Shown: positions 24,880 to 37,990 of the stretch, piece after piece
Layout: each line of letters begins with the position of its first letter
Position numbering within the stretch: position 1 is the stretch's first letter
Assembly (NCBI RefSeq): GCF_017901175.1
Contig: NZ_CP072793.1
Coordinates: 2,480,001 to 2,544,000 of the forward strand
DNA: 64,000 bases
Direction of reading: 5' to 3'
From: Thiothrix unzii
GTDB lineage: Bacteria > Pseudomonadota > Gammaproteobacteria > Thiotrichales > Thiotrichaceae
Translations under genes and position numbers: made by a program
Notes under the pieces: generated by a model
Databases searched by the model: none
What the model saw: the letters and a program-made list of their open reading frames with translations, nothing else
What the model was told of the DNA's origin: nothing

Positions 24880-24910
24880 CAATACGAAGTTATTCAGGAC
24901 GCATGTGAGG
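24880..24910 (+). repeat. Left border repeat: duplicated lysS 3' tail
   Basis: Read on the minus strand it encodes PHMRPE and stop, exactly as the end of lysS, with a synonymous change (CGT for CGC), and also includes bases beyond the stop. 29 of 31 bases match 36480-36512 apart from a two-base gap. It is the likely attL. Confidence 0.7.
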
Positions 24911-24980: not shown

Positions 24981-25009
24981 AAAGTACCGTGTGTTATACG
25001 GTATCAGCA
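24981..25009 (+). repeat. Inner 29-bp border repeat, left copy
   Basis: Starts AAAGTACCGTGTG and ends ACGGTATCAGCA; 27 of 29 bases match 36397-36425 in the same orientation. The core TACCGTGT...ATACGGTA is palindromic. Probably an integrase-binding or alternative attachment site. Confidence 0.65.
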
Positions 25010-25018
25010 GAAACAATA

Positions 25019-25063: not shown

Positions 25064-25627
25064 TTATGCCGCCTCTTTTGCACCTGCCAGCCTGTAAACG
25101 CTATTGCGGGCAATACCATATTTGTCTGCGATTGCCTGCATAGAAAGAATACCGGCCTTAACGTCTGCTTTCAGGGTGTCAAGCTGTTCATCGGTCATCT
25201 TTGGTTTACGTCCAAACTGCACACCCTTGGCCTTAGCCGCCTTGCGCCCTTCGTCACATCTGGCGTTTATCAGGTCACGTTCAAACTCTGCCAGACTGCC
25301 CAAAATGTTGAACAGTAACTTTCCCGTTGGGGTGGTGGTGTCTATCTGCTGGTCTGTGACAACAAACCCTACGCCCTTCTTTTGTAATTGGCTTGTAATG
25401 GTGGTTAGGTCGTTCATTGAACGCGCCAGACGGTCAAGCTTGGTAATTACGAACACATCACCTTCACGGGCAAACTCTAAAGCCGCTTGCAGTTGCGCCC
25501 GGTCGTCTGCACTTTTCCCGCTTTGCTTTTCATGGAAGATTTTTTCACATCCAGCCGCTTGCAGCTTGTCGAGTTGGGTTTGATAGTCTTGCCCGGTGCT
25601 TGAAACTCTTGCGTATCCGATTTTCAT
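25064..25627 (-). CDS. Serine recombinase (resolvase/invertase family)
   Basis: 187 aa, ATG with AAGGCGG upstream. N-terminal catalytic domain with the nucleophile serine in YARVSSTGQD, and the conserved LDRLARS and GSLAEFERDLI segments; C-terminal helix-turn-helix about 145-185 (SMQAIADKYGIARNSVYRL). Small resolvases of this type resolve multimers or invert DNA. It lies at the left end of the element, in its own unit between terminators, and its upstream region carries five copies of a decamer that could be its recombination site. Confidence 0.93.
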   Translation of the reverse strand: MKIGYARVSSTGQDYQTQLDKLQAAGCEKIFHEKQSGKSADDRAQLQAALEFAREGDVFVITKLDRLARSMNDLTTITSQLQKKGVGFVVTDQQIDTTTPTGKLLFNILGSLAEFERDLINARCDEGRKAAKAKGVQFGRKPKMTDEQLDTLKADVKAGILSMQAIADKYGIARNSVYRLAGAKEAA

Positions 25628-25676: not shown

Positions 25677-25813
25677 TGTACTAAATATCCTAGATGATAG
25701 CTAACATTATTTTAGTACAACTTTTAGTACATACATGACACGCTGTAACCCGCATTGCTACGTGGTGACACAAACAAGCCGCGTTTGTACTAAATGTTTC
25801 AATATTTAGTACA
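25677..25813. promoter_or_regulatory. Five-copy decamer array, candidate res site or operator
   Basis: TGTACTAAAT occurs at 25677-25686 and 25786-25795; its complement (A/T)TTTAGTACA at 25710-25719, 25722-25731 and 25804-25813. The pair 25786-25813 is a perfect inverted repeat of 28 bp overall with an eight-base spacer, similar in size to subsite I of Tn3-type res sites. It lies just upstream of the resolvase gene in a 253-bp gene-free stretch. Confidence 0.55.
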
Positions 25814-25880: not shown

Positions 25881-26450
25881 CTATCGTTTGCGGTAGTCGT
25901 CAAGGTTGTGAACCCGTGCCGTGTAATCATCACACCACCGCCATGCTGGTGAACTCTGCATAACCACATTACCGTAGGGCGTAACCTGCCGGTAAGTGCA
26001 GCGATTTTGCAGGCAGTCAGTGCAGCGCACCATTCCCGCTGGTATTTCTTCGGGTTGGGGTTCTTCCCTGCCCTTGTACTGGTAAGCGTACCAGCGCACC
26101 GCCTGAACAATACCCGCTTGTTTTACTCTGCCCTCCCCGAACTCTTGCAAGTCATCAGCGAAAAAAACCGCCAATTCTTCAAGAGTAACAGGCAATCCCG
26201 CCGCCGCTGCCTCTAGCCGGTTCATACCCTGTTTTTTCAGTTCTGGCGCGTTGCTAATGCTAATCTTGCTAATCCTGCTAATCCTAGATTTTTCGTCAAT
26301 AGAATCAGTATGTTGCAGATTAGCAGAACTTGCTAATCGTTTGCTAATCGTTGCTAATCCTGCTAATTGTGGCTCACTTTTTAAGCAACTAGCCGGATTT
26401 ACGGTAGCAAGCGGGTCATAATCGGGGTTTAGCCAGTCTCTAAGTGCCAT
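25881..26450 (-). CDS. Hypothetical element protein containing the iteron cluster
   Basis: 189 aa; start overlaps the stop of the upstream DUF3987 gene (TAATG). Not recognised. Residues about 28-70 are encoded by nine copies of a heptamer repeat and read as repeats such as RISRISKISIS and LATISKRLASS; the coding constraint seems secondary to the DNA repeat. The middle (MNRLEAAAAGLPVTLEELAVFFADDLQEF) is helical, and the C-terminus has four cysteines (RCTDCLQNRCTY...WRWCDDY) that could bind zinc. Found in a replication operon, so possibly an accessory replication protein; no firm function. Confidence 0.65.
   Translation of the reverse strand: MALRDWLNPDYDPLATVNPASCLKSEPQLAGLATISKRLASSANLQHTDSIDEKSRISRISKISISNAPELKKQGMNRLEAAAAGLPVTLEELAVFFADDLQEFGEGRVKQAGIVQAVRWYAYQYKGREEPQPEEIPAGMVRCTDCLQNRCTYRQVTPYGNVVMQSSPAWRWCDDYTARVHNLDDYRKR
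26252..26367 (-). repeat. Iteron cluster A (nine ATTAGCA heptamers) inside a coding region
   Basis: TGCTAAT (complement of ATTAGCA) starts at 26252, 26258, 26267, 26276, 26331, 26342, 26352 and 26361; one copy in the other orientation starts at 26319. Spacing is often 9 bp, in two sub-clusters. The same heptamer forms cluster B at 34815-35051. Confidence 0.8.
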
Positions 26451-28024
26451 TACTTCACCTCTTTCAGCAGTGCCGGGTTAACTTCAATCACTGCGGTTTT
26501 GCCCTCTTTGATCTGGCGAATGCGGTTTGCACGTTCCAGCGTATCCAGTGCCTTATTCAGCTTGTCGGCCTTGCGCAAATTGGCTGGGGTTACGCGCTGC
26601 AATACACGGCTTTTGCTAATGCTGGGTTCACCATTGGCCTTGCATTCAGCGATTAACCACGCATCCAGCTTGACCGCTTCAAGGTCATCTTTAGGTAAGG
26701 CAACATCACCAAAAAACCGCCGCGCTTCGTACAAGTGCCAGCCCGCCAAACGACAAGCCGCTCTCATGGTTTCGCCGCTGATTGCGTCCAGCACATCGCC
26801 GCCGTTGAATAGGTGGAACAATCCCGCTAAACGTGCCGCGTTGTTGGGGTTCTTGCCTGCTATCTTGCCTTCGCCTTCAAAATCGCCGCCTGAAACAAGT
26901 TCGCGTTCAACAGAATTCAGATAATTAACCCATATTCCCAGTGCTTCACGGGAGAGTTTGAGCGTTGGCAGGTTGTCGAACTTGCCGCCCTTCCCGTTTG
27001 TGTATTGCTGTTCAAGTATTCCGTGCAATTGCTTACGGAATGCTTCAATGCTTGGTGTTTGCGCCTCAGTTAACAGGGTTTCAACGTCTTCAAAGCGCGT
27101 GCCTTGCGTCGTATCAGGAAAGGACAAGAGCCAACGTGCAAAGAAACCCGAACCCGTTGCACCCCTGCCGTTTGTCTCGAAAAACTCCCGGATAAGGTCG
27201 GGTTGAATAGCTATGCCCATTGAGAACCTTACGCCGGTAATAATAAAGCTGTCATCATCGCTACTACGGGTTACTTCCTGCTTCCCGCCTTCCCATAATT
27301 CATTGATTCGCGAAAAGTTGCGCATCGCTTTATCTTTTGCCATGCCATGACCGCCAAACACCGCCCCACCTTCAGCCGATAGGTTGCACAAACTAGCCCA
27401 CTTGTTTCTAAGGTGGTTTGCTATGCCTTCGGGTGTTGCGTCCTTGGTTGTCATCCTTGGGGCGTAAACTCTTGCGGGTTCGTTCTGTTCCAACATTACA
27501 AGCTTCTTACCTGCCTCTTCGCCTTTTTGCAGGTTTGCCGGGTCGCACTTGGATTCCGCGCTTTCAATGGCTTTCTCTAATCCGCGCTTTTGGGCATTCC
27601 ATCTTGCAAATTCAGCCTTGTATGCTTTTAGTTCTGGTTCAAGCTCTTGCGTTTTGTTGTCGCACCATTCGCCGATTTCCTCAGAAAAGAAGTCGTCAGC
27701 CGCGCTTTTGCGTTCGTTTGGGTCGCCAATTGTGACCATAATCAAGCTAAGTGGTGACGGCTTTTTTAATCGTGGGTTAGGTTTGATATTGGCAACACCT
27801 TGGCACGCTGTCGCCAGTACCGACAAAGCAGAGTTTGCAGCGAGTGCCGCCGGACATTTGACGATTGCCACAACCTCACGCACCGCCGCGCCAATAATGC
27901 CCGGTAGTGCGTCAAGCGGGTACGGTGCTGCGCTGCTTTGTTGGGTGAGCGGTTCGGGTGTATCCCACTGATAAGCGGGTTTTTCAATGGTTGCCATTTG
28001 TAGGATTTTCGCTGGTACTGCCAT
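26450..28024 (-). CDS. DUF3987/YfjI-type primase-helicase-like ATPase
   Basis: 524 aa from the ATG at 28024, one base after the Toprim stop, with TGAGG nine bases upstream; the ATG at 28039 lacks a ribosome site. Resembles DUF3987 proteins of mobile elements: N-terminal PAALAANSALSVLATACQG, a Walker-A-like GDPNERKSAADDFF near residue 100, and STGF-type core segments such as NGRGATGSGFFARWLLSFPD. Members are thought to act in replication of satellites and integrative elements, often together with a Toprim protein, as here. It is the best candidate to recognise the ATTAGCA iterons. C-terminal residues about 430-524 look like a winged-helix (KSRVLQRVTPANLRKADKLNKALDTLERANRI, in parts). Confidence 0.8.
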   Translation of the reverse strand: MAVPAKILQMATIEKPAYQWDTPEPLTQQSSAAPYPLDALPGIIGAAVREVVAIVKCPAALAANSALSVLATACQGVANIKPNPRLKKPSPLSLIMVTIGDPNERKSAADDFFSEEIGEWCDNKTQELEPELKAYKAEFARWNAQKRGLEKAIESAESKCDPANLQKGEEAGKKLVMLEQNEPARVYAPRMTTKDATPEGIANHLRNKWASLCNLSAEGGAVFGGHGMAKDKAMRNFSRINELWEGGKQEVTRSSDDDSFIITGVRFSMGIAIQPDLIREFFETNGRGATGSGFFARWLLSFPDTTQGTRFEDVETLLTEAQTPSIEAFRKQLHGILEQQYTNGKGGKFDNLPTLKLSREALGIWVNYLNSVERELVSGGDFEGEGKIAGKNPNNAARLAGLFHLFNGGDVLDAISGETMRAACRLAGWHLYEARRFFGDVALPKDDLEAVKLDAWLIAECKANGEPSISKSRVLQRVTPANLRKADKLNKALDTLERANRIRQIKEGKTAVIEVNPALLKEVK

Positions 28025-28025
28025 G

Positions 28026-28925
28026 TTATGCGGCCTCATTAATCAGGTCGTTAAAGTCGGCCTTGTTGGTGGTGTTCGGGGTTAGCACATAGCCGTTACA
28101 GGCAATCGCGGCTTGTCTGGCGTAGTGAACGCCGGGGTTTTGAATGTTGCCCGCCTTAACGCCTATGTCATTGTCAGCAGCAAACACTAATTCAGATTCA
28201 GGGTAGCGGGTGCGTATCGCCTGCCCTACTGGGGTTAGGTTGCCCGCGTCGAATGCAATAACGACACATTGCCGGGTTAGCTGGTGCAACGTTGCGCCGG
28301 TTGCGTAGCCTTCGCACACATAAACCGTATCCGTTGGGGTTTCGGGCTTGCCAATGTGGTGAAAACCGCCGCGCTTGCTCCCTAAGATAATCTTGTCAGT
28401 TTTCCCGCCGTCTGCGGTTTCCACTTTTGCCGGGTAGATGTATTGCAGGGCTTGCAGTTGCCCGGATACGTCACGGATAGGCACAAGCAAGGCGGTGTTG
28501 TGTTGGCGGATACCGAACGCGCCTACCTGCTTACGGACTAAATACGGGTGGTCTGGATTAGCAGGCTGTGAGGCTGCCCACGTTTGCCGCTGTTTGGCGA
28601 TACGTTGCGCCCTTGCCAATGCCGCCGCCGCTTGCTGGCGTGCGTTGTGTGCGTCAATTTCGGCCTTACGTTGCGCGTATTCTTCGGGTGAAAGTCGAGT
28701 GTTATCCGTTCCCCATGATTTCCAAGTGAAATACGCCTCACCTTGGCGGTGGTCGTGGTAACGGACAATCACACCCTTAACGTGCTGGATAACGATGTAA
28801 CGGCACTTGCCCTTGTTGGGGACTTCGCCGCCGTCGTGCCACTGTCCATCCTCTTTCAGGTTGTCGAATGAATAGCCGATGTTTTGCAGTGTGTGTGCTT
28901 GCAGGTCGTGCATATTGGGTATCAT
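28026..28925 (-). CDS. Toprim-domain protein (primase-like)
   Basis: 299 aa; start overlaps the stop of the preceding small ORF (ATGA). The Toprim domain spans about 195-299, with VCEGYATGATLHQL (catalytic Glu) and VFAADNDIG (DxD-like acidic motif). The N-terminal part has YIVIQHVKGVIVRYHDHRQGEAYFTWKSWG-type beta strands and an Ala/Gln/Arg-rich helix at about 85-115. No zinc-finger motif is seen. Such proteins on P4-like elements pair with a helicase to prime replication; with the DUF3987 gene downstream this is probably a split primase-helicase system. Confidence 0.85.
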   Translation of the reverse strand: MIPNMHDLQAHTLQNIGYSFDNLKEDGQWHDGGEVPNKGKCRYIVIQHVKGVIVRYHDHRQGEAYFTWKSWGTDNTRLSPEEYAQRKAEIDAHNARQQAAAALARAQRIAKQRQTWAASQPANPDHPYLVRKQVGAFGIRQHNTALLVPIRDVSGQLQALQYIYPAKVETADGGKTDKIILGSKRGGFHHIGKPETPTDTVYVCEGYATGATLHQLTRQCVVIAFDAGNLTPVGQAIRTRYPESELVFAADNDIGVKAGNIQNPGVHYARQAAIACNGYVLTPNTTNKADFNDLINEAA

Positions 28926-29188
28926 GGCAACACCTCGAAAATGTAACGGTTAATCCAGCCGCGCCAATGGTGCGCCCGGTCGTGCTGTGGTCGAGTGGTT
29001 GGAGTGCTGCGGATACGCTGAATAATCACGGCTTTTACCTTGTGAACGTGCTGAATAAATGCCGGTGATATGCCATAATGCAAAGCATCCGCGCCGTTAA
29101 TAGTGGATTCTCCAAAAGCCCGCCCGACTTGTCCCCGGTGCGGGCTTTCTCGTTTTGGGGGATACCCTCCCCCGGTTTCCTGAATCAT
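28922..29188 (-). CDS. Small Ash-like ORF, may be an RNA gene rather than a protein
   Basis: 88 aa, start overlapping the alpA stop (ATGA) and stop overlapping the Toprim start (ATGA). The protein is Arg/His-rich and not recognised with certainty; GRAFGESTINGADAL and FIQHVHKVKAV recall small ORFs in the same place of P4-like elements (Ash type), from memory. Its first third is encoded by a strong hairpin (29115-29148), so part of the conservation may reflect an RNA. The coupling at both ends argues for real translation. Confidence 0.4.
   Translation of the reverse strand: MIQETGGGYPPKRESPHRGQVGRAFGESTINGADALHYGISPAFIQHVHKVKAVIIQRIRSTPTTRPQHDRAHHWRGWINRYIFEVLP
29060..29165 (-). ncRNA. Candidate immunity-type structured RNA (C4/CI-like)
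   Basis: AAAGCCCGC (29115-29123) and GCGGGCTTT (29140-29148) form a perfect nine-base-pair stem with a G/C-rich loop, in the leader of the Toprim-DUF3987 genes. P1 C4 and P4 CI antisense RNAs sit in comparable places. A plus-strand reading is also possible because CTCGTTTT follows the stem. Strand and ends are uncertain. Confidence 0.3.
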
Positions 29189-29364
29189 GCCGCCGCGTCC
29201 ATGAATGCTTTCAACTCTGAATACTTCCAGCGTGCCGCGTTAAATCCAACCTTCACGGGTTTAGGAATTTTGCCAACCCGTGCCAGCCGCCAAATGCTTG
29301 AACGGGATAGTTTCAACACGCCAGCAACTTCTTTATCTGTAAGCATTTGTTCTAGGGTTTCCAT
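29185..29364 (-). CDS. AlpA-family transcriptional regulator
   Basis: 59-aa protein beginning METLEQMLTDKEVAGVLKLS, with AAAGGAT upstream of the ATG. It has the MerR-like helix-turn-helix of AlpA/excisionase proteins: LTDKEVAGVLKLSRSSIWRL, then GKIPKPVKVG and ARWKYSELKAFMDA. AlpA-like proteins on P4-type elements activate excision or replication genes. It is the first gene of a coupled chain alpA - small ORF - Toprim - DUF3987 - orf189. Two 16-bp direct repeats lie about 65 bp upstream. Confidence 0.9.
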   Translation of the reverse strand: METLEQMLTDKEVAGVLKLSRSSIWRLARVGKIPKPVKVGFNAARWKYSELKAFMDAAA

Positions 29365-29426
29365 AGTTTTATCCTTTATAGATTGATGTGCCGCTATATT
29401 GTCTTATCCCGCCGCGTTATTAGTAG

Positions 29427-29462
29427 ATGTTTCCGATTTGGTCGGAATGTTTCCGATTTGGT
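29427..29462. promoter_or_regulatory. Two 16-bp direct repeats upstream of alpA
   Basis: ATGTTTCCGATTTGGT at 29427-29442 and again at 29447-29462, 20 bp apart, about two helix turns. Located between alpA and the end of the upstream gene; a plausible operator for AlpA or another element regulator. Confidence 0.5.
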
Positions 29463-29469
29463 AGGCGAT

Positions 29470-30042
29470 TTATCCGGCTTCGGAAAAATACCGGATAAAT
29501 GTTTTCCTGAATGTTTCCCAATCGTCATAACCATGAACATCTTTACCCATATCAAATAGTTCACGCCCGTAAGGATACCATCCATTTTCATCATGAAATT
29601 TTTGTGCAGCCGTTAGCATCATTCTAACCCTAGGCTTCTTTGCCTCTTTTATAGATTTAGGAATATCTTTCAATGGAATCATCCTATCTTTCTTCGTTAT
29701 CGGCTCTATTTCTTCAATTGAATCAAAATTCCCATCACTTTTGAATATCGAGTCACAAAGCTTTATCACATCACGCTTTCTTATCATCGTAATACTTGTC
29801 GGCTTTGGTAAATTTTGCTCCTCTCTTGGCTTTCCATATCCGGCTGCCATAGCAATAAGTATTTCCCCACCGTTTGTTATCTCCCATAAATCAAAGAAAT
29901 CCTTTTCAGCCAGTCTTATTATAAGTTCTTCATCTATTACTAAATCGTTCTTAATTATCTTAATGGCTGAAATAATATCGCTTAACTTAAAGCTTTCATC
30001 ATCAGCAGCATACTTGAAGCCATATATAGGCAAATCACACAT
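29470..30042 (-). CDS. AT-rich hypothetical gene, likely cargo
   Basis: 190 aa from the ATG at 30042 (AGAGG nine bases upstream), beginning MCDLPIYGFKYAADDES; a longer version from 30081 is possible but overlaps no good ribosome site. Rich in Ile, Lys and Asp, with clearly higher A+T than neighbours, a sign of recent transfer. The C-terminal 50 residues (AAQKFHDENGWYPYGRELF, YDDWETFRKTFIRYF) look like a compact folded domain, and residues 30-70 suggest another. Not recognised. Its position between a transposition-neutral operon and the membrane genes fits a swapped-in cargo gene of the kind that often encodes defence in P4-like elements; that is inference only. Confidence 0.7.
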   Translation of the reverse strand: MCDLPIYGFKYAADDESFKLSDIISAIKIIKNDLVIDEELIIRLAEKDFFDLWEITNGGEILIAMAAGYGKPREEQNLPKPTSITMIRKRDVIKLCDSIFKSDGNFDSIEEIEPITKKDRMIPLKDIPKSIKEAKKPRVRMMLTAAQKFHDENGWYPYGRELFDMGKDVHGYDDWETFRKTFIRYFSEAG

Positions 30043-30082
30043 AAAACACCTCTGGCCTACCCTAGATGCTGAAAAAACCATT

Positions 30083-31636
30083 TTACACTTTCCGCCGCCG
30101 TGACTTTGCTTTCAGGGCTTCGAGCCGCGCCGGGTCTTGGCTGTTATGCCATTCGTCCGAACAATTCCCGCCGTCTTCCCGCTTCTTTCTGGAATGACTG
30201 CAAAAGATGTGAAACCTATTAACTTTCCTGAACGGCTTACCGCAATTTGGGCAGTTAATGACAGTTCCCGCCGCTGCGCTTTCCGCCTTACTGTAAGCGT
30301 CTACAGAGGTCTGTAATACAGAGGTCTGTAGGTTGGTGGTGTCTGTAACTACAGAGGTCTGTAGGGCGTTCTGTAAGTCCTTACGCGGTACTGCACCATA
30401 GTCGTGAGGGGTAGGGCGTTTGGTCATTGGCATAATGATTTCTTGCGGATACCTTGCACGGTTTGCCGCGTCTTGGCCTTGGTTGGAACGGGTAGGGATA
30501 AACCCGAATCCGGGCTTTTCCGCCTGCACTTCGTCGGCCTGCCATTTAAACAACTTGGCAGTTTGGGGAATAAACCCGAACCCGGTTTTATTGTCAGCGT
30601 ATGGCGTGCCTTTGGTTCTGATTTCAAAGTCCGCGCCTTGGTCATCCATTGGGACATTTAACGGCTTGTCGGACAAATCAATGGTGCGATTGTCTTTGAA
30701 GTCGCCAGAATCGAAGGTCTTACCCGTTGCCCGGAAATACTCACCATTCAAACCTTTCAGCGAGAAACTGTAGGTATCAATGCCGCGTAATGCCCGTGCC
30801 TCATTAAAGATCGTGGTAATGTGGATCAACTCAAAGAACAACGCGGCAATAATGACAATAATCATGGTTCCCGCATCGTTGGACATATCCACCAGTTCAG
30901 CCGCGTACTTGGCGGCGGGTAGGGCGTGTTCGTCACGTTCCTTGCTTAACGCTGCCTGCTTTGCCCCAATTGCCGCGACATTGGCAGTTGCTACGCTTTC
31001 CCGTTCGGCCTGCGCTTGCTGTTTCAGGCTGGAAACCTTGGCGGTACTGTTGTCACAGTCTTTCGTCTTACCCTCTGCCAATTTGCGCTGGCAAGCCACG
31101 AGCTTAAATTCAGCATCAGCGATTAACCCGGCAATAGTCCCCGTGGACGAACTGCCCACGGTGGTATTCAGGATAGCCGCGCCTGCTTTGCTGGTTTCCA
31201 CCGAATGAAACGCCTTGGCCTGTAGGTTCGAGCTTGCGCTAATCGCTTCGTAGTAAAGCCCGCTAATCAACGCAAGACTAATAATCGCGTGAATGATTAC
31301 CTGCCCACGGTGGTTGCGCTCTACGCTGTTTTTAGCAATCGCCTTGTAGTTGAAATGCTTTGCCAGCGACAACGCCAGTGGTACAGCAAAAACCGTTACC
31401 AGTGCCCATGTCATGCCGATAACGTTGGTGTAATTCCCAAAGATGTAATCTTGCAGGTTCCACACCGTCACCCCGGCAAAAATAACGCTGGTGAACGAGA
31501 AGTAAATGAAATAGGTGGCAATCGTGAAAACCTTCTGACTGGTTTTAATACCCTTCAAGTCCTCTTGATGCGTTTCCAGCTTTTGGGTGTTTTCGCTCAA
31601 ATCTTGCGAGAGGGTATAAGCGTTTGATAGGTTCAT
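30083..31636 (-). CDS. Multi-pass membrane protein with coiled coil and C-terminal zinc-ribbon-like motif
   Basis: 517 aa from the ATG at 31636, two bases after the preceding stop, with GGGGGTG upstream; the ATG at 31654 lacks a ribosome site. Predicted membrane segments at about 38-60, 72-95, 115-135 and 265-285; between the last two an extracytoplasmic or cytoplasmic helical stretch of about 120 residues with two cysteines (VACQRKLAEGKTKDC). The soluble C-terminal half has a twice-used GFGFIP motif, tandem LQTSV repeats and CPNCGKPFRKVNRFHIFCSH...C, which could bind zinc and nucleic acid. I do not recognise the family. It forms a unit with the 94-aa membrane protein upstream. Confidence 0.8.
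   Translation of the reverse strand: MNLSNAYTLSQDLSENTQKLETHQEDLKGIKTSQKVFTIATYFIYFSFTSVIFAGVTVWNLQDYIFGNYTNVIGMTWALVTVFAVPLALSLAKHFNYKAIAKNSVERNHRGQVIIHAIISLALISGLYYEAISASSNLQAKAFHSVETSKAGAAILNTTVGSSSTGTIAGLIADAEFKLVACQRKLAEGKTKDCDNSTAKVSSLKQQAQAERESVATANVAAIGAKQAALSKERDEHALPAAKYAAELVDMSNDAGTMIIVIIAALFFELIHITTIFNEARALRGIDTYSFSLKGLNGEYFRATGKTFDSGDFKDNRTIDLSDKPLNVPMDDQGADFEIRTKGTPYADNKTGFGFIPQTAKLFKWQADEVQAEKPGFGFIPTRSNQGQDAANRARYPQEIIMPMTKRPTPHDYGAVPRKDLQNALQTSVVTDTTNLQTSVLQTSVDAYSKAESAAAGTVINCPNCGKPFRKVNRFHIFCSHSRKKREDGGNCSDEWHNSQDPARLEALKAKSRRRKV
30302..30363. repeat. Three copies of a 14-bp near-palindrome inside a coding region
   Basis: TACAGAGGTCTGTA at 30302-30315, 30317-30330 and 30350-30363, with partial copies on both sides. 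In the minus-strand gene they encode LQTSV units. Confidence 0.75.
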
Positions 31637-31638
31637 CG

Positions 31639-31923
31639 TTACACCCCCAACCATGAAATAGCGAATAAACCCGCCAGATAAAACAACCTTAATAGGCTGT
31701 TATCCGGTAGCCGCCACATTGATAGCGTGATTGCCAATGATGCAACCACGGGAAAGAACCGATAAATCGTGTAGATGTGGTTGCCGTTGCTGGCAATGCT
31801 GGCGAAAGCCACGACATACAGCCCGACAAATCCCAGTGCTAGGCCGTTGGTGGCGTGCTTGAAGAGCTTTAACCGCTGAATGGTGTTGCCCATTTGGGGC
31901 ATGTTTTTGCTATCATTTAGCAT
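31639..31923 (-). CDS. Small membrane protein
   Basis: 94 aa, ATG preceded by TAGGTAA. Three hydrophobic stretches (GLALGFVGLYVVAFASIAS, FFPVVASLAITLSMWRL, LLRLFYLAGLFAISWLGV), so probably three membrane helices with a short charged N-terminus. Not recognised. Two bases separate it from the 517-aa membrane protein, suggesting a shared complex. A candidate plus-strand RNA starts opposite its translation start. Confidence 0.7.
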   Translation of the reverse strand: MLNDSKNMPQMGNTIQRLKLFKHATNGLALGFVGLYVVAFASIASNGNHIYTIYRFFPVVASLAITLSMWRLPDNSLLRLFYLAGLFAISWLGV

Positions 31924-32011
31924 ACTGTTACCTATTGAGTGGGTCAGTAAATGGCTGTTTTGGTGCTTCCAACACCTTGCAGCCGGAATGCCCCAGTAAT
32001 GGGGCGTTTTT
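31907..32011 (+). ncRNA. Candidate small RNA 2 (antisense to the membrane operon leader)
   Basis: TTGCTATCATT (31907-31917) contains an extended -10 (TGC-TATCAT). The predicted transcript from about 31923 can fold GGCTG...CAGCC with an inner GGTG/CACC, and ends in GCCCC-AGTAAT-GGGGC (31990-32005) followed by GTTTTTG. No plus-strand gene precedes this terminator. The same 11-mer precedes candidate RNA 1. Confidence 0.45.
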
Positions 32012-32020
32012 GTTTGCGGA

Positions 32021-32170
32021 CTATGCCGCCGCCTTCTGTTCCTCTTCCTTTGCTTTTACCTCCTTCAAGATGCGGACTAGTTCCGCGTTCATGCTTCTAT
32101 CGTTCACTTTGGCGCGGTCTGTCAGCCATTGGTGAACATCGGCGGGAATTCTGACTTGTGTTTGCTTCAT
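32021..32170 (-). CDS. Arc-like ribbon-helix-helix protein (minus-strand partner)
   Basis: 49 aa starting MKQTQVRIPADVHQWLTDRA, with AAGGAAT upstream; the longer ORF to 32395 is not plausible because this start has the ribosome site and matches the family. The pattern QTQVRIP-(strand)...RSMNAELVRILKE is the Arc/Mnt fold: one strand and two helices. It is transcribed divergently from another protein of the same fold at 32286, so the pair probably forms a regulatory switch for the membrane operon or the plus-strand gene. Confidence 0.85.
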   Translation of the reverse strand: MKQTQVRIPADVHQWLTDRAKVNDRSMNAELVRILKEVKAKEEEQKAAA

Positions 32171-32238
32171 GGTATTTATTCCTTGATTTGGTACTGAAAT
32201 AGTAGCCAATAGATACTGTAACACTACCATTTGTGACT

Positions 32239-32257
32239 TGCAACTATCACAGTTGCA
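32239..32257. promoter_or_regulatory. Inverted repeat between the divergent ribbon-helix-helix genes
   Basis: TGCAACT-ATCAC-AGTTGCA, perfect seven-base arms, in the 115-bp divergent region. Nearby TACTG/TAGTA-type motifs recur at 32190-32225. Likely operator for one or both regulators. Confidence 0.5.
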
Positions 32258-32285
32258 TAATGCTGATTTTCTAAAGGTGGTGAGA

Positions 32286-32507
32286 ATGGCAAGGGAAAAC
32301 GTGACACAAACACAAGTCAGGCTACCGAATGAACTACTGGAAGCTTTAAGGGTATCGGCTGAAAAAAACTTACGTAGCCTAAACGCTGAAATCATTTACC
32401 AGCTACAGGCAGGAATAGGGCTTACGTCGCCACACGCGACACCCGAACAGGTGCGGGAAATCGTTGCAGATGTTGTAAAGTCGGAACTGGCGAAGGCTGG
32501 AAAGTAA
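32286..32507 (+). CDS. Arc-like ribbon-helix-helix protein (plus-strand partner)
   Basis: 73 aa from the ATG at 32286 with AAAGGTGG upstream. TQTQVRLPNELLEALRVSAE and RSLNAEIIYQLQAGI match Arc/Mnt; the C-terminal tail (PEQVREIVADVVKSELAKAG) may be an oligomerisation helix. It is the only plus-strand protein gene I see in the element. Head-to-head with the 49-aa relative, as in repressor/antirepressor switches. Confidence 0.85.
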   Translation: MARENVTQTQVRLPNELLEALRVSAEKNLRSLNAEIIYQLQAGIGLTSPHATPEQVREIVADVVKSELAKAGK

Positions 32508-32576
32508 CCCCAACGCGCATCCTTAGAGGGTGCGCGGGTGTTTCGGTGTGTGCGGTGTGGGCGGGTTATTGAATAT

Positions 32577-32903
32577 CTATAGCGCGTGCAAATTGCGTGT
32601 TTGTTGTGCTATCTCTAACGCCGTTGCTTCATTCCATCGCGCGGTAATGCCCGACAGCCTAAACAGGTCAACGAGCCACCAGATAAACATTCCCCCAGCC
32701 GTGAAAATGAATAAAGCCTGCATACCCCACTTGCCGTAATACGCATAGTGAAAGCCGATAATCCAAAGAAGCAGCGCGGGGAATGTGTGCTTGCTCTTGC
32801 GTGCAAATTGGTTGATTGCAAACTGTTTAGCGTCATCGTCCATCTTTGACATGATGCGACTGAATCCGGGAACGAGTTTGTTTAGTTGCTCTTCGACTGT
32901 CAT
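32577..32903 (-). CDS. TM2-domain-like small membrane protein
   Basis: 108 aa; ATG overlaps the stop of the HTH gene (ATGA). Two membrane helices with the charged turn typical of TM2 domains (ALLLWIIGFHYAYYGKWGMQ, then FIFTAGGMFIWWLVDLFRL). The N-terminal 45 residues are soluble (VEEQLNKLVPGFSRIMSKMD). TM2 proteins are found in many mobile elements; function unknown. Probably works with, or is controlled by, its HTH neighbour. Confidence 0.75.
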   Translation of the reverse strand: MTVEEQLNKLVPGFSRIMSKMDDDAKQFAINQFARKSKHTFPALLLWIIGFHYAYYGKWGMQALFIFTAGGMFIWWLVDLFRLSGITARWNEATALEIAQQTRNLHAL

Positions 32904-33262
32904 TGAATAGCCTCCTCTTGTTCCGCAATGTTGCCCTTAAGGAATAATTCATCATTGAACCACGGGTGAGCCTGCTTTATTGCTTGAAGGTAATCGCGTG
33001 GTATTTTTTCATCAGATAGCCAGTTCTGTACTCTTTGACGATCAACACCAAGCAATTTTGCAACCTTGGTTTGCCCGCCTTTTATCTTGCCGCTCTCTGC
33101 AAACAGCAAAAGCCTTATTTCAAGCATTTCATCGGATGGTGAGTCAGAGGTATCAACAACCCCCTTGAAGTCTCCCAGTACGGTCTCACGCAAACTTAAT
33201 GACAGCTCATTCATTCTTTTCTTTAGCTGTTCAATTTCTTTCATGATAGCTTTTTCTTTCAT
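32900..33262 (-). CDS. HTH DNA-binding protein
   Basis: 120 aa (a start at 33244 is equally possible; neither has a strong ribosome site). N-terminal coiled-coil-like region (KEIEQLKKRMNELSLSL) followed by a helix-turn-helix at about 66-100: GGQTKVAKLLGVDRQRVQNW, then LSDEKIPRDYLQAIK. The layout suggests a Cro/CI-like or transposon-type regulator. It lies downstream of candidate small RNA 1 and is coupled to the TM2 gene. Confidence 0.75.
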   Translation of the reverse strand: MKEKAIMKEIEQLKKRMNELSLSLRETVLGDFKGVVDTSDSPSDEMLEIRLLLFAESGKIKGGQTKVAKLLGVDRQRVQNWLSDEKIPRDYLQAIKQAHPWFNDELFLKGNIAEQEEAIQ

Positions 33263-33359
33263 ATCAGCCCGATTGTGTTAGTTGATAAGGTATAAAAAAC
33301 TACCACCATCCATGATGATTGGCGCATAAAATCAGACAAGTGGTATTTTGTACAAAGTG

Positions 33360-33463
33360 TTTAAAATCATAGCGCACATTGCTATCATTCATATTCACCC
33401 TTATGGAACTGATACCTCTTTGGGGGTGAATCGCCCGAACTGGTAACGGTTCGGGCTTTTTTA
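33360..33463 (+). ncRNA. Candidate small RNA 1 with own promoter and terminator
   Basis: -35-like TTTAAA (33360-33365), 17-bp spacer, -10 TATCAT (33383-33388) inside TTGCTATCATT. The predicted RNA of about 68 nt starts near 33395, folds TTCACCC (33394-33400)/GGGTGAA (33424-33430), then ends in GCCCGAAC-TGGTAACG-GTTCGGGC (33433-33457? outer stem) and TTTTTT. A tiny reading frame (MELIPLWG) lies inside. It is antisense to the leader of the minus-strand HTH gene. The strand assignment comes from the T-run. Confidence 0.45.
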
Positions 33464-33479
33464 TGCCTGTTATATCGCG

Positions 33480-33782
33480 TTAGGCTGCTTTTCTCCTTCC
33501 TAGCAATCGCGTGCTGAACACATCAATCACAACCTGAACATGAAACGGCGCGTTAATGCTGGCAAGGTCAAGCGGAACGGCTTTAAGCATTGCCACAATG
33601 TCGCCCTGCCAGTCTTTCCACGTCATACCATTGCGGCGATGATGTGCAACAACCCGCGCTTTATATTGCCGGATTTGTTCAGCCAATCCCCGCCCTTCTG
33701 GTGAACTCCACGTTAACCCGTTGGCTGCGTGCATTGCGTTGATCTGCTGCGCAAAAGCTTTAGTGGCTTGTGTTGATTTCAT
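33480..33782 (-). CDS. Small hypothetical protein (paralogue of the next gene)
   Basis: 100 aa from the ATG at 33782 with AAGGGG upstream; the longer ORF to 33863 overlaps the neighbour. The middle YKARVVAHHRRNGMTWKDW resembles YKAQVAAYHAKHGRNWAQW in the gene just upstream, and the later AVPLDLAS resembles AIPFDWET, so the two are likely diverged copies. Not recognised; no membrane segment. Located in the small-gene block between the DUF5681-like gene and the HTH gene. Confidence 0.7.
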   Translation of the reverse strand: MKSTQATKAFAQQINAMHAANGLTWSSPEGRGLAEQIRQYKARVVAHHRRNGMTWKDWQGDIVAMLKAVPLDLASINAPFHVQVVIDVFSTRLLGRRKAA

Positions 33783-33792
33783 TGCTAACCCC

Positions 33793-33996
33793 TTATTGCT
33801 GTTCAGCTTTCGCGGCTTCAACTTCATCAAACACGGCATTAAAAAGCTGTTCGCCCTCTTCATCGGTCAACGTTTCCCAATCGAATGGGATAGCGTCAAA
33901 AACTGATTCAGCGTCAGCCCATTGCGCCCAATTCCGCCCATGCTTTGCGTGATAGGCCGCTACTTGTGCTTTGTATGCTTCAATGATTGCGTTCAT
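33793..33996 (-). CDS. Small hypothetical protein (paralogue of the previous gene)
   Basis: 67 aa, ATG with GAGG about ten bases upstream. Starts MNAIIEAYKAQVAAYHAKHG; acidic C-terminus (DEEGEQLFNAVFDEVEAAK). Shares a YKA-V-A-H-G-W-W pattern with the 100-aa product encoded ten bases downstream. A small DNA- or protein-binding factor is possible; no function can be assigned. Confidence 0.7.
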   Translation of the reverse strand: MNAIIEAYKAQVAAYHAKHGRNWAQWADAESVFDAIPFDWETLTDEEGEQLFNAVFDEVEAAKAEQQ

Positions 33997-34076
33997 GTTG
34001 TCTTGTCCTCTGCTTAGTTTTTGGTTGGTTTGCAGCGTTTCGGTGTTCCGTTGCGCTATGTGTTCATTATGCAGGG

Positions 34077-34265
34077 TTATGAATTACGACGTAAGCCATT
34101 GAAAAAGCTAATTATTGTAAACGTTTTCTTTCCAGCAAGGCGGGTAAAAGCTGGGTATTTTGGCGCGTGATTGCCTGAAATGGCGATGTATTGCGGGGGC
34201 GTGTAAAAGTCTTGCGGGTGACTTTGCTTTACAGCGTGCCGGAAACCCCGAAAAGTTCCCGACAA
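34077..34265 (-). CDS. Possible small ORF, weak
   Basis: 62 aa reading SGTFRGFRHAVKQSHPQ after a TTG start; a stop lies four codons upstream, so no ATG is available. A different frame opens with an ATG coupled to the stop of the DUF5681-like gene (34285) but ends after 18 codons. It may be a frameshifted or degenerate gene. The rest of 33997-34284 shows nothing else. Confidence 0.2.
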   Translation of the reverse strand: MSGTFRGFRHAVKQSHPQDFYTPPQYIAISGNHAPKYPAFTRLAGKKTFTIISFFNGLRRNS

Positions 34266-34284
34266 ACGGTAGCATTAGGCGGCA

Positions 34285-34689
34285 TTAATTCCCGTGTTCT
34301 TCCATGAACTTCAAGCGTAATTCTGTTGCATAGTCGTTGTAGCGTTGTGAATTCGCTGATTCGGTTATTACCTGTTCAATCCGTTGCGCCGGTCTGCCCT
34401 CTGCCCTATCTAACAACTCCCTGCACGCCGCAACCCGTGCGCTTGCAGGTGCGTCTTTGTCTTGTGCAATTTCAAGCAATGCGCCCACAATCGCTTCAAG
34501 GTGTTGCCCTACCAGCTCCCGCACGCTTGCCGTCGTTTTGTTTGGCGTGCCAGCTTTGCGCCCGCCCGCTTTTGGGTGTCTTGGCTTGAATTGCGTAATC
34601 CGTGAGCCTTCACCGCCGCCCTTTCCTTCACTTAACATCTGATTAGCTCCAAAGTAGTTTCCCACTATTTTAGTGGATAATTCTATCAT
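34285..34689 (-). CDS. DUF5681-like / terminase-small-subunit-like protein
   Basis: 134 aa from the ATG at 34689 (AAAAGG six bases upstream); the TTG at 34713 is less likely. The signature KAGGRKAGTPNKTTASVREL with a basic N-terminus is typical of DUF5681 and of small-terminase-like proteins found in phages and satellites. Residues 70-134 are helical (APASARVAACRELLDRAEGRPAQRI, in parts). It may bind DNA near a packaging or origin site. The adjacent noncoding region carries the iterons, so an origin-linked role is possible. Confidence 0.65.
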   Translation of the reverse strand: MIELSTKIVGNYFGANQMLSEGKGGGEGSRITQFKPRHPKAGGRKAGTPNKTTASVRELVGQHLEAIVGALLEIAQDKDAPASARVAACRELLDRAEGRPAQRIEQVITESANSQRYNDYATELRLKFMEEHGN

Positions 34690-34814
34690 GTTCGCCTTTT
34701 GTTCGTTTTTCAATATCTGGCGTGTGTTTCGTTGCCGTTGGGTTTGGTTCAGGTGGTTAGCCGTTGGGGTGTTGAATGCCTGCTTTTTCCTGATTGCCTA
34801 AAAACCAAGCCAAA

Positions 34815-35051
34815 ATTAGCAGGATTAGCAAGATTAGCATTAGCAAGCACTGCCACATGAAAACGATGGGTTGATAGATTAGTTAAGTTATTGATTAATA
34901 TAATAATGATTAATTATCAACCTTATACCTATACCTAATATTGATTAAGAATTAATCTAAAATTAGCAGGATTAGCAAGATTAGCAGAAAAACAGAGGAG
35001 AATTAGCAAGGTTTTCAGGTATCAGCATTAGCAACACGGGCAAAATTAGCA
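34815..35051 (+). other. Candidate replication origin: iteron cluster B with AT-rich segment
   Basis: Ten copies of ATTAGCA in one orientation start at 34815, 34824, 34833, 34839, 34962, 34971, 34980, 35002, 35027 and 35045; neighbouring copies are often 9 bp apart, reading (A/G)GATTAGCA. Between the two sub-clusters lies a roughly 100-bp segment of mostly A and T (34862-34960), with a weak DnaA-box-like TTATCAACC at 34914. This 436-bp stretch (34690-35125) has no gene. The layout is like iteron-type origins. Confidence 0.6.
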
Positions 35052-35125: not shown

Positions 35126-36361
35126 TTATCCCGCCCGTAACGTATCCAGATAATCAGCCCATGCTTGCAGCATTTCGCGCCTTTTATCCAAGTGCTTTGT
35201 CCGGTCATACGCCCCCTTGTGCGGGTCATTGCCCTTGTGTGCAAGCTGCCGTTCTGCGGTCTTTGCGTCATAACCTAATTCATCTTCAAGCAGTGTCCGT
35301 GCTGTCGCCCGGAATCCGTGCCCGGTCATAGTGTCGCTGTCATATCCCATATTTCGGATTGCATAGCGTATGGTATCCCGGCACATATGCCCTGAACCGC
35401 CTTTTAGACTTGGGAACACGTACTTGCTGCCGGTGTTGTACTGTTCAAGCTCTCTCAAAATTGCGATTGATTGACGGCTTAACGGTACTATGTGGGAATC
35501 TTCTTCCCTGTTTTCCGCCTTGATGTGCTGCCGGTTCTTCATGCGCTTGGCTTCGATTGTCCATGTCGCTGTTTCAAAGTCGATTTCACGCCATTCAGCC
35601 GCCACCAACTCACCCGGCCTAAGCATTACCAAGGCCGCTAATTTAAGTAGGCATGTTGTCGCGTAGTATCCGTGGTAATGGCCTATATCCCGTAAGAATT
35701 GCCCCAATAGTTCAGGGTTGGTAATCGCTGCATGTGGCTTTGACCTGCGGGGCTTGAGTATTACGCTTAGGTCAATGTCTGCCGGGTTGTTATCGGTGAA
35801 TCCTTTGGTTTTCGCATACCTGAATATTTTGAACAACCACCGCCCAACGCGCCTTGCTTGTTCCCCCGCCCCACGGTTAGCCACTCTTTCCACTGCTTCG
35901 GTTATCTTGCTGGTTCTGACTTCGTTTATGGGTGTGTCTTTGCCGATAACGGGGAAAATGTCATTGTTGAAGTAAGCCGTAATGCTCTTTTTGCCCCTAA
36001 TCGCCCCCTCTTTATTTTCCAGCCACGCATGGGCAACCGTTCCAAAGCTGGTATAAGTTGATTCTGCTACCTTTGCCGCTCTCTTTATTGCCATTGGGTC
36101 AACGCCCTTGGTAAGCCCTACCCGTGCCTCACGGTGCGTCTTGCGTGCTTCACTAACGGTTATGAGTGGATACGTGCCAATGGGTAAGGTTTTGCGCTTG
36201 CCTGCAAACTGATAGTCATAACGCCAGTACATGCCAAACTTGCCGGATTTCAGCGGCTTCAGGTGGATGTACAGCCCTTCGCCGTCGACTAGCTTTTGCT
36301 TGTCCGGCACTGATTCGCCGCGATGAATTGCCTTTAGGTCTACGTCTTTGAGAATGCCCAC
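35126..36361 (-). CDS. P4-type tyrosine integrase
   Basis: 411 aa. N-terminal DUF4102-type arm-binding domain (KLVDGEGLYIHLKP, KTLPIGTYPLITVSEAR), SAM-like core-binding domain about 105-190, and catalytic domain with Arg in ALVMLRPGELVAAEW, HGFRATART (HxxR), and HKGNDPHKGAYDR, where the tyrosine nucleophile follows. These are the R-H-R-H-Y residues of the family. It integrates and, with a helper, excises the element. It lies 119 bp from the right border, the usual place for P4-type int genes. Several GTACCG motifs precede its start (36359-36420) and may be arm sites or autoregulatory sites. Confidence 0.95.
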   Translation of the reverse strand: MGILKDVDLKAIHRGESVPDKQKLVDGEGLYIHLKPLKSGKFGMYWRYDYQFAGKRKTLPIGTYPLITVSEARKTHREARVGLTKGVDPMAIKRAAKVAESTYTSFGTVAHAWLENKEGAIRGKKSITAYFNNDIFPVIGKDTPINEVRTSKITEAVERVANRGAGEQARRVGRWLFKIFRYAKTKGFTDNNPADIDLSVILKPRRSKPHAAITNPELLGQFLRDIGHYHGYYATTCLLKLAALVMLRPGELVAAEWREIDFETATWTIEAKRMKNRQHIKAENREEDSHIVPLSRQSIAILRELEQYNTGSKYVFPSLKGGSGHMCRDTIRYAIRNMGYDSDTMTGHGFRATARTLLEDELGYDAKTAERQLAHKGNDPHKGAYDRTKHLDKRREMLQAWADYLDTLRAG

Positions 36362-36396: not shown

Positions 36397-36425
36397 AAAG
36401 TACCGTGTATTACACGGTATCAGCA
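36397..36425 (+). repeat. Inner 29-bp border repeat, right copy
   Basis: Contains the perfect inverted repeat TACCGTGT-ATT-ACACGGTA (36401-36419). Direct copy of 24981-25009 (two mismatches). It sits between the integrase start and the lysS end. Confidence 0.65.
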
Positions 36426-36479
36426 AGGCTTAAAGGTGGGTGTTCCCCGTGAAAAACCTATATTTAACACGGGGTAAGA

Positions 36480-36512
36480 CAATATGAAGTATTATTCAGG
36501 GCGCATGTGAGG
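36480..36512 (+). repeat. Right border repeat at the lysS 3' end
   Basis: The functional copy of the lysS tail (PHMRPE stop) that matches 24880-24910. Likely attR. Just outside, CCCCGTG (36445-36451) / CACGGGG (36468-36474) could be a weak lysS terminator. Confidence 0.7.
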
Positions 36513-37988
36513 GAATAAAATCACATCCCTAATCGAAGGCGCGTCAGTAAACAGCATCACCAGACGGTCAATCCCAATCCCTTCCCCTGCGGTTGGCGGC
36601 ATTCCGTATTCCAGTGCACGGATGTAATCCGCGTCGTAATGCATCGCCTCATCATCGCCTGCGTCTTTATCCGCGACTTGTTGCATGAAACGTTCTGCTT
36701 GGTCTTCCGCATCATTCAACTCGGAGAAGCCGTTGCCGATTTCACGCCCACCCACAAAAAATTCAAAGCGGTCGGTAATGAACGGGTTTTGATCGTTACG
36801 ACGCGCTAGTGGCGACACTTCCGCCGGGTATTCAGTGATAAACGTCGGTTGCATCAAGCGGTGTTCAACCGTTTTCTCGAAAATCTCGATCTGTACTTTA
36901 CCCAAACCGTAGCTGTCTTTCAGCGGAATACCTAAACCTTTAGCTACTGCACGCGCTGCATCCAAGCTATCAATATCCGCCCCCGTCAAGGTCGGGTTGA
37001 AATGCAAAATGGAGTCACGCACACTGATACGCGCAAACGGCTGGCTGAAATCGAAGCTTTCCCCTTGATAAACAATGTCTTTGCTGCCCACCACGTCAGT
37101 CGCAATACCGCGCATCAAGGTTTCGGTCAAATCCATCAAATCATGGTAAGTCGCATACGCCTGATAGAATTCAATCATGGTGAATTCTGGGTTATGGCGC
37201 GTCGAAACCCCTTCGTTACGGAAGTTACGGTTAATTTCAAACACCCGCTCGAAACCACCCACCACCAAACGCTTCAAATACAACTCCGGCGCGATGCGTA
37301 AATACATCGGCAAATCCAGTGCGTTATGGTGCGTCACAAACGGACGCGCCGTAGCACCACCGGGAATCACTTGCAGCATCGGGGTTTCCACTTCCAAGAA
37401 GTCGCGCTGCGTAAAGAAGTTGCGGATATAACTGACGATTTTGGAACGCATTACAAACGTATCGCGGGTTTCATGATTCATAATCAAATCAATGTAACGC
37501 TGGCGATAACGTTGCTCGTGGTCGGTCAAACCGTGGAACTTTTCCGGTAATGGACGCAGCGATTTAGTCAGTAAGCGAATTTCCTTCACCTTGACTGACA
37601 ACTCACCTGTTTGCGTTTTAAACAGTGTGCCACTTGCCCACACAATGTCGCCCAAATCCCAGTGGGTATAAGCCTCAAACACCGCATCACCCAACACGTT
37701 TTTCTGGGTGTAAAGCTGGATGCGCCCCGACGTATCGGAAAGCGTCGCAAAACTGGCTTTACCCATCACCCGCTTGAGCATCATGCGCCCTGCAACCGTG
37801 ACTTCAACCGGGTTTTCTTCAAACCACGGCTTCTCGTATTCACCGTATTGCGTCTGTAAATCGGCGGCTTTATGCTCACGCACAACGTCGTTAGGGAATG
37901 GCACACCCTGTTCACGCAACACGGCGAGTTTTTCGCGGCGTTGAGTAATCAGTTTGTTATCGTCGTGATGAAGTTCATGTTCGCTCAT
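36492..37988 (-). CDS. lysS: Lysyl-tRNA synthetase (class II)
   Basis: 498 aa from the ATG at 37988, three bases after the prfB stop; the extra 49 residues available upstream overlap prfB and are rejected. Class II motifs: [21 protein letters not shown] (in parts ETPMLQ and PGGATARPF), [26 protein letters not shown] and [11 protein letters not shown]. It charges tRNA-Lys. The prfB-lysS order is the usual proteobacterial arrangement. Its 3' end is the integration site of the element; the protein is restored to full length by the element's copy of the tail. Confidence 0.97.
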
Positions 37989-37990
37989 AA

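Follow-up and report, generated by a model that had tools for sequence, protein, structure and literature searches.

An integrative element of about 11.6 kb, which is inserted at the 3' end of lysS in the genome of Thiothrix unzii, carries two clusters of the heptamer ATTAGCA that, judged from sequence comparisons, are likely to be the two halves of a replication origin read by the element's own DUF3987 helicase. The element lies in the window analyzed here, a stretch of 64,000 nucleotides (contig NZ_CP072793.1, positions 2,480,001 to 2,544,000, forward strand), to which coordinates refer unless another record is named. The proposed initiator is a DUF3987/YfjI-family helicase of 529 amino acids with an MCM-like AAA+ fold (26450-28039, minus strand), and its C-terminal winged helix (residues 450-521; 26477-26692, minus strand) is the proposed reader of the iterons. 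A first-pass annotation, made from the sequence alone, had suggested an initiator-iteron system with two clusters, and this suggestion is supported as the best reading of the data, the two clusters of an element sharing one word or site in several elements of the genus.

Cluster 1 (26252-26367, minus strand) contains nine copies of ATTAGCA, eight on the minus strand and one on the plus strand. It begins about 80 bp 3' of the DUF3987 stop codon and lies inside orf189 (25881-26450, minus strand), which encodes a 189-amino acid protein with a conserved domain at about residues 70-130 and in which the cluster specifies the stretch ...RISRISKISIS.... Cluster 2 (34815-35051, plus strand) contains ten copies, in groups of four and six and all on the plus strand, within the intergenic region between the integrase gene and orf142, a 142-amino acid open reading frame (ORF). 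Between its halves lies an A+T-rich stretch (34846-34961, 75% A+T) that overlaps the 116 bp with the highest A+T content in the element and is a likely unwinding element. The first-pass annotation had located both clusters exactly, nine copies within a coding sequence and ten around an A+T-rich stretch, although it had erred in noting only one other isolated copy (28557): eleven scattered copies lie outside the clusters, two in the element (26614 and 28557) and nine elsewhere in the window, the latter being roughly the chance number. The window holds 30 exact copies on both strands, compared to 8.7 +/- 2.6 expected, and none of 100 shuffles reached 30. Spacings follow the patterns 6-9-9 and 9-9-6 and are looser beyond that. 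While the single heptamer was counted within the window, the tandem form ATTAGCANNATTAGCA was counted throughout the 3.72-Mb genome, where similar clusters elsewhere would have spoken against a dedicated origin; all seven of its matches fall within the two clusters, and the reversed control gave none.

Comparison of related elements from the same genus revealed that both clusters change together. A protein search with orf189 gave matches in 8 of 57 genomes, that of T. unzii included, and in the surrounding stretches the repeated words were found without any word being named beforehand and were then counted per place. These elements have a like architecture and other words. The window element has ATTAGCA 9 + 10 times at the two places, while AATAGCA occurs 9 + 8 times in a second element of the same genome (L012/L037), 9 + 11 times in L013 and 9 + 10 times in L015, and CATCACA occurs 4 + 8 times in L017 and 3 + 7 times in L018/L035. 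Inspection by eye added a 15-bp site in L014 and the word ACCCTGC in L016, each common to the helicase end and a distant site, so that a word or site is common to two places in 8 of the 12 same-genus elements scanned (six by known word, two by eye). The DUF3987 proteins of the three AATAGCA elements are 83-91% identical to that of the window, and ATTAGCA is absent from their clusters. In L016 and L017 a D5_N/DUF5906 helicase takes the place of DUF3987, and L014 has a distant DUF3987; because these three elements differ in helicase yet keep the conserved orf189 domain, the word changes with the helicase while that domain stays.

Similar arrays lie behind DUF3987 genes in other bacteria. Relatives were sought by alignment-based searches of 63, 369, 398, 179, 180 and 8 genomes, some of them overlapping, and further relatives were drawn from genome_contigs and viral_contigs; the DUF3987 alignment A1 confirmed no relatives when run against these last two collections. 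DUF3987/YfjI genes were found in integrative elements, plasmids and viral contigs, and the nearest named relatives of the window helicase are from Thiothrix (L113, L114). Arrays were called where 6 or more successive bases matched exactly at lag 9 between -100 and +700 of the stop codon, and these runs were scored for T[A/C]G[C/G]; the procedure covers lag-9 arrays near the DUF3987 stop. In the contig set, a 9-bp-spaced array of the T[A/C]GC type was called behind DUF3987 in 80 of 87 loci. The call was also made in 22 of 87 windows from gene bodies, in 8 of 69 lying further downstream (+1500 to +2300) and, after dinucleotide shuffling, in an average of 5 of 87. Runs at lag 6 (73/87) and lag 15 (81/87) fit the 9-9-6 layout of the window. 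The array occupied both strands in 101 of 118 loci. In 94 of 118 it lay inside an ORF whose start falls between -30 and +90 relative to the DUF3987 stop, so that placement in the following coding sequence is the norm for the loci examined.

An unbiased column scan over the full helicase alignment against the iteron bases identified two residues, one turn apart in the C-terminal winged helix, that track the word. For base 4, the column of Gln481 (codon at 26597-26599, minus strand) reached a z of 24.5 in 42 called loci, followed by 477 (z 7.9) and 482 (z 7.0), with all others at or below 5.3; over 119 loci the corresponding values were 56.7 for 481, 23.6 for 482 and 13.7 for 477. Of the 70 TAG-type loci, 66 have Gln at residue 481, and Arg is present there in 46 of the 49 loci of the TCG type; the pairing of Gln with TAGC and Arg with TCGC holds in 114 of the 119. 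The column of Ser477 (codon at 26609-26611, minus strand) tops the scan for the first two bases, with a z of 28.1 for base 1 and of 27.7 for base 2: Arg accompanies TG in 60 loci, Asn accompanies AG in 16 or AA in 5, Ser accompanies AT in 12, Ala accompanies AT in 7, and Thr accompanies AA in 4. T. unzii itself harbors three combinations of residues 477/481 and word, namely S/Q with ATTAGCA (window), N/Q with AATAGCA, and R/R with TGTCGCA. Residue 487 was rejected as a setter of the word, as both Lys and Arg accompany TGTCGCA at this position, and an early rule, settled on the discovery set and based on counting residues backward from a proline, gave way to the single alignment column.

The residue rules also held in loci outside the discovery set. 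The rule for residue 481 was obeyed in 17 of a further 19 loci. A mapping learned from 41 loci predicted base 4 correctly in 74 of 77 held-out loci and bases 1-2 in 61; all four bases were right in 58 of the 77, compared to 26 when the commonest word was always named. Seven of the 16 misses at bases 1-2 carry Ala477, which was absent from training, and all seven read AT. Kinship was addressed with a quick helicase tree built without the winged helix, from which independent pairs were taken on supported branches. Base 4 changes 25 times on this tree, and in 16 independent pairs residue 481 was concordant in about 13, opposed in 0 and without difference in about 3 (median p 0.00024). For T at base 2, residue 477 was concordant in 12.9 of 13 independent pairs, and for TG in 14.5 of 17, with none opposed in either case.

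On the strength of this covariation, residues 477 and 481 may well act as a winged-helix code that sets origin identity in a widespread bacterial family of MCM-like helicases and predicts both the word and the compatibility group. Under such a code, Gln or Arg at 481 would correspond to A or C at base 4, while at 477 Arg would specify TG, Ser or Ala AT, Thr AA, and Asn AG or AA. The origin would be written into the next coding sequence. If the choice of word depends on residues 477 and 481, co-resident elements would therefore keep their origins apart and avoid cross-firing; because the elements within the T. unzii genome differ at these residues, it is proposed that helicase sequence alone would predict word and compatibility group.

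Several individual arrays are described here for their own sake. The second element of the T. unzii genome (G000:C2:3129497-3141677; L037, L012) has DUF3987 and Toprim proteins that are 91% and 96% identical, respectively, to those of the window, and its orf189, with the iteron array, is partly duplicated in tandem. A third DUF3987 element in this genome (G000:C2:2687317-2689400; L029 9300-11400) carries TGTCGCA in three triplets spaced by 108 bp, which are intergenic and lie behind the next ORF. In L090 and L091, from another class of the phylum, TAGGA replaces TAGCA 3' of the DUF3987 stop and the winged helix has a distinct RGPFK motif, a possible change of iteron core. Three successive arrays with different words (NTTAGCA, TGTCGCA and AGTAGCA) follow the DUF3987 stop in L057 and are perhaps the remains of several elements.

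The loci came from two sets. The first comprised 60 loci, of which 42 were used, L054 being dropped for its wrong reading frame and 17 for lack of an array call (L050, L051, L062, L069-L076, L085, L087, L095-L098). Among the latter, TTAAGCA with Asn (L050/L051), ATCCGCA with Arg (L070) and TGCCGCA with Lys (L076) were seen by eye and left uncounted, and duplicates or fragments, L078, L080, L088, L099, L100 and L108-L112 among others, were not used. The second set of 88 loci combined 8 viral records with the 80 that ranked highest by similarity among 377, which leaves remote homologues under-represented; L175 lacked a stop and seven loci gave no call (L117, L132, L156, L189, L190, L197, L199). 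Three loci that duplicate the first set (L113, L114, L191) were excluded from the 77 and the 119 and included in the 80 of 87. With these duplicates, the residue 481 rule held in 76 of 80 second-set loci, L191 being scored there as an exception, while inspection by eye shows TTTAGC/ATTAGCA in its array. The 19 first held-out loci were viewed by eye before the automatic call was written, and were thus blind with respect to the residue rule and not to the scoring. With the 77 second-set loci, both the scoring and the column had been fixed in advance. The rule for bases 1-2 was first noticed on all loci pooled and was later relearned from 41 and checked on 77.

Structure prediction placed the two residues within the helicase. 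The window protein matches Pfam DUF3987 (PF13148) with 249.9 bits against a cut-off of 27, and also phrog_2373, annotated as DNA helicase; no match to D5_N or DUF5906 was found in Pfam. An AlphaFold model based on 56 sequences (predicted local distance difference test, pLDDT, 90.9; predicted template modeling score, pTM, 0.87) has an MCM-like AAA+ core followed by a winged helix. The core (residues 46-445) resembles MCM helicases (6mii_B; Z 18.6, root mean square deviation [rmsd] 3.7, 275 residues aligned), and residues 450-521 form a winged helix near that of Mcm4 (5u8s_4; Z 9.5, rmsd 2.0, 70 aligned), with many other winged helices scoring within 1 to 2 of this Z. A DUF3987 profile gave no match up to E 1 among PDB sequences. 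Residues 477 and 481 are located on, or at the start of, the second helix, H2 (478-483 in the full model, 476-482 in the domain model), and Arg489, just before the canonical recognition helix H3 (491-503), is invariant in alignments of 56 and 32 rows. On one reading, Arg489 would serve the constant GC core and residues 477 and 481 the variable bases.

A number of observations weigh against an origin of two clusters specified by residues 477 and 481. Since these residues precede the canonical recognition helix, the geometry of contact is unexplained. The base 4 rule has five exceptions among the 119 loci: L083 (Gln, C), L084, L128 and L181 (Arg, A), and L171 (Asn, C). The window subfamily has one extra residue near 482 (Q-R-V-T-P, compared to R-L-A-P in most relatives), and because it falls just after that position, the residue placed in column 481 is the aligner's choice; within the subfamily, where no gap intervenes, the rule holds, the members ending in VTP or ITP having Gln and TAGC (window, L012, L013, L015, L120, L125) or Arg and TCGC (L053, L118, L136, L140, L143, L146, L166). 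Single array calls can be false, as in L191, because the lag-9 call also fires in gene-body windows at the frequency given above, and no such array was seen behind the stop in the remote YfjI homologues L062, L069, L071-L074 and L095-L098. Finally, second arrays often went unseen. Outside the genus, one was found in 2 of 80 loci (L123, L193) within the flanking sequence retrieved, and among the same-genus elements no second distant cluster was seen within the stretch fetched in L019, L028, L029 and L031 (4/12); L028, L029 and L031 have arrays solely behind the helicase region, and L019 has no cluster at all in that stretch.

That no second distant array was seen in the sequence retrieved for these 4 same-genus elements and for 78 of the 80 other loci is what would be expected if the helicase-side cluster alone were the origin and cluster 2 served in copy control or incompatibility, or if these roles were exchanged. 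The location of the L028 arrays between the helicase region and the integrase is likewise in keeping with this arrangement, which is possible, though on present evidence doubtful: a site is shared between both places in the other 8 same-genus elements, and in Burkholderia (L188) the same array recurs 7 kb away. The latter came from a search of 30 whole records, in which the pattern used gave 32 matches compared to 12 for its reversed control. Furthermore, most flanks extend to about 4 kb, too short to include the other end of an element.

An arrangement in which the arrays are no origin, serving instead as a partition (centromere-like) or operator site for the DUF3987 winged helix or another regulator, is unlikely. 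Centromeres and operators, too, can be arrays of short repeats, and the weak Foldseek matches of the winged helix include the partition protein TubR. However, a Pfam scan of 14 element proteins revealed no partition ATPase, the putative reader residues are within the helicase itself, and cluster 2 surrounds the region where the element is richest in A+T. Origins directly behind the gene of an initiator helicase are, moreover, known from Staphylococcus aureus pathogenicity islands (SaPI) and the staphylococcal cassette chromosome mec (SCCmec), according to the portions of the source consulted (PMC7581432).

The first-pass annotation had named either the DUF3987 or the orf189 protein as the binder, and the evidence favors the helicase, whose residues 477 and 481 track the word over 119 loci. 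That orf189 is the initiator and binds iterons in its own gene, as lambda O does, is suggested by the position of cluster 1 within orf189 and of most arrays in the ORF that starts at the DUF3987 stop, and yet is quite improbable. The conserved orf189 domain also occurs beside other helicases with other words, at 70-72% identity beside the distant DUF3987 of L014 and, in L016 and L017, beside a D5_N/DUF5906 helicase; the first cluster of L017 lies in the 3' end of the helicase gene, outside the orf189 relative. The word tracks the DUF3987 winged helix, in a scan whose columns were those of the helicase and not of orf189. The orf189 protein was rejected as iteron reader, since its conserved domain does not track the word, and it had no match among phages and plasmids at E 0.01. 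A helicase initiator would also set this element apart from the lambda O type, as the iterons would be not in the initiator's own gene but, in the case of cluster 1, in the gene after it. The idea that the repeats are a matter of chance or a by-product of repetitive protein sequence, as the low-complexity RIS repeat encoded by cluster 1 might suggest, deserves virtually no credence and was rejected, given the joint change of both clusters in same-genus elements, the same word in the intergenic cluster 2, the occupation of both strands in most arrays, and a copy number above that of every shuffle.

An origin read by the DUF3987 helicase would combine features of several known systems. P4 alpha is a single primase-helicase of another helicase type, that labeled D5_N/DUF5906, which recognizes the repeats of ori and crr at two cis places, one of them beside an A+T-rich stretch; crr helps replication in cis, and the P4 repeat word differs from ATTAGCA. 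The first-pass annotation had seen the logic of P4 in the two clusters. This comparison is apt insofar as an element helicase appears to be paired with the same word at two separate cis sites (9 + 10 copies in the window), and it fails at the protein level, where the window has an MCM-like DUF3987 helicase and a separate Toprim protein in place of an enzyme of the P4 alpha type.

Resemblance to the staphylococcal systems concerns arrangement. In the accessible parts of the source, the C-terminal domain of SaPI Rep recognizes iterons directly 3' of the helicase gene, and that of SCCmec Cch2 binds direct repeats just 3' of its own gene (PMC7581432). Cluster 1 of the window and the arrays called in 80 of 87 relatives likewise stand straight behind the helicase gene, whereas in the window this cluster is embedded in the following ORF and a second cluster lies far off. 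The Cch2 repeat is a different one, and no second cluster or residue code is described for it in those parts (PMC7581432). The phage-inducible chromosomal minimalist islands (PICMI) of Vibrionaceae are small integrative satellites for which the primase term of the search model is DUF3987 with DUF5906, and deletion of the primase gene lowers copy number; they are inserted downstream of fis and have another gene set, and the sections of the report consulted mention no iterons (PMC10803314). DUF3987 domains have been predicted to be novel helicases of mobile elements, in a paper whose available passages describe no origin, iterons or winged-helix specificity (PMC5862659). Another paper names crr without describing it in the part seen (PMC9942202). 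Among the matches listed, no full-text article contained both 'DUF3987' and 'iteron' (most subscription journals being outside this search), no title on YfjI was about origins, and no paper on islands named Thiothrix. It seems that no origin has so far been described for DUF3987/YfjI genes.

These comparisons suggest how replication might proceed. In the excised circle, about 2.8 kb would separate the clusters across the junction of the element ends. The DUF3987 helicase would assemble on the ATTAGCA iterons of cluster 2 through its C-terminal winged helices, with residues 477 and 481 perhaps in direct contact with the variable bases. The adjacent A+T-rich stretch would then melt and the helicase would load, after which synthesis would be started by a host primase or by the Toprim protein (28026-28925, minus strand), a primase-like protein of 299 amino acids that is the proposed partner of the helicase. 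Cluster 1 would be a second cis site, either a helper like P4 crr or one that holds copy number down.

The element is bounded by 20-bp near-repeats at 24891-24910 and 36493-36512, which were found by eye, are identical at 19 of 20 positions and are the presumed attachment sites; the right copy lies at the 3' end of lysS (36492-38135, minus strand). Pfam matches identify a tyrosine integrase (35126-36361, minus strand) and a serine resolvase/invertase (25064-25627, minus strand). A plasmid initiator of the Rep_3 type was considered and rejected, no Rep_3 match being found among the same 14 element proteins, a scan that did not include a few small ORFs. Just inside both ends, at 24981-25010 and 36397-36426, are repeats of the form AGTACCGTGT...ACGGTATCAGCA in the same orientation, which are probably arm sites of the integrase. 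Words of the form TTTAGTACA occur in alternating orientation at 25677-25813 and also in L016 (645-775), L017 (76-206) and L035 (1956-2086); in the window, L016 and L017, the three records compared in this respect, they are upstream of the resolvase gene, and they are perhaps sites for the resolvase or a regulator. The 523-amino acid membrane protein orf523 (30083-31654) is matched at 23-72% identity in 7 of 8 loci from the genus.

If the proposed origin is correct, the DUF3987/YfjI family would gain an origin of replication, and a rule of two residues would predict the origin word from protein sequence. The low-complexity start that is frequent in the gene following the helicase, as in ATVATVAVA and RISRISKIS, would be explained by the embedded array. 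Moreover, the origin specificity and incompatibility of integrative elements would become testable with natural variants.

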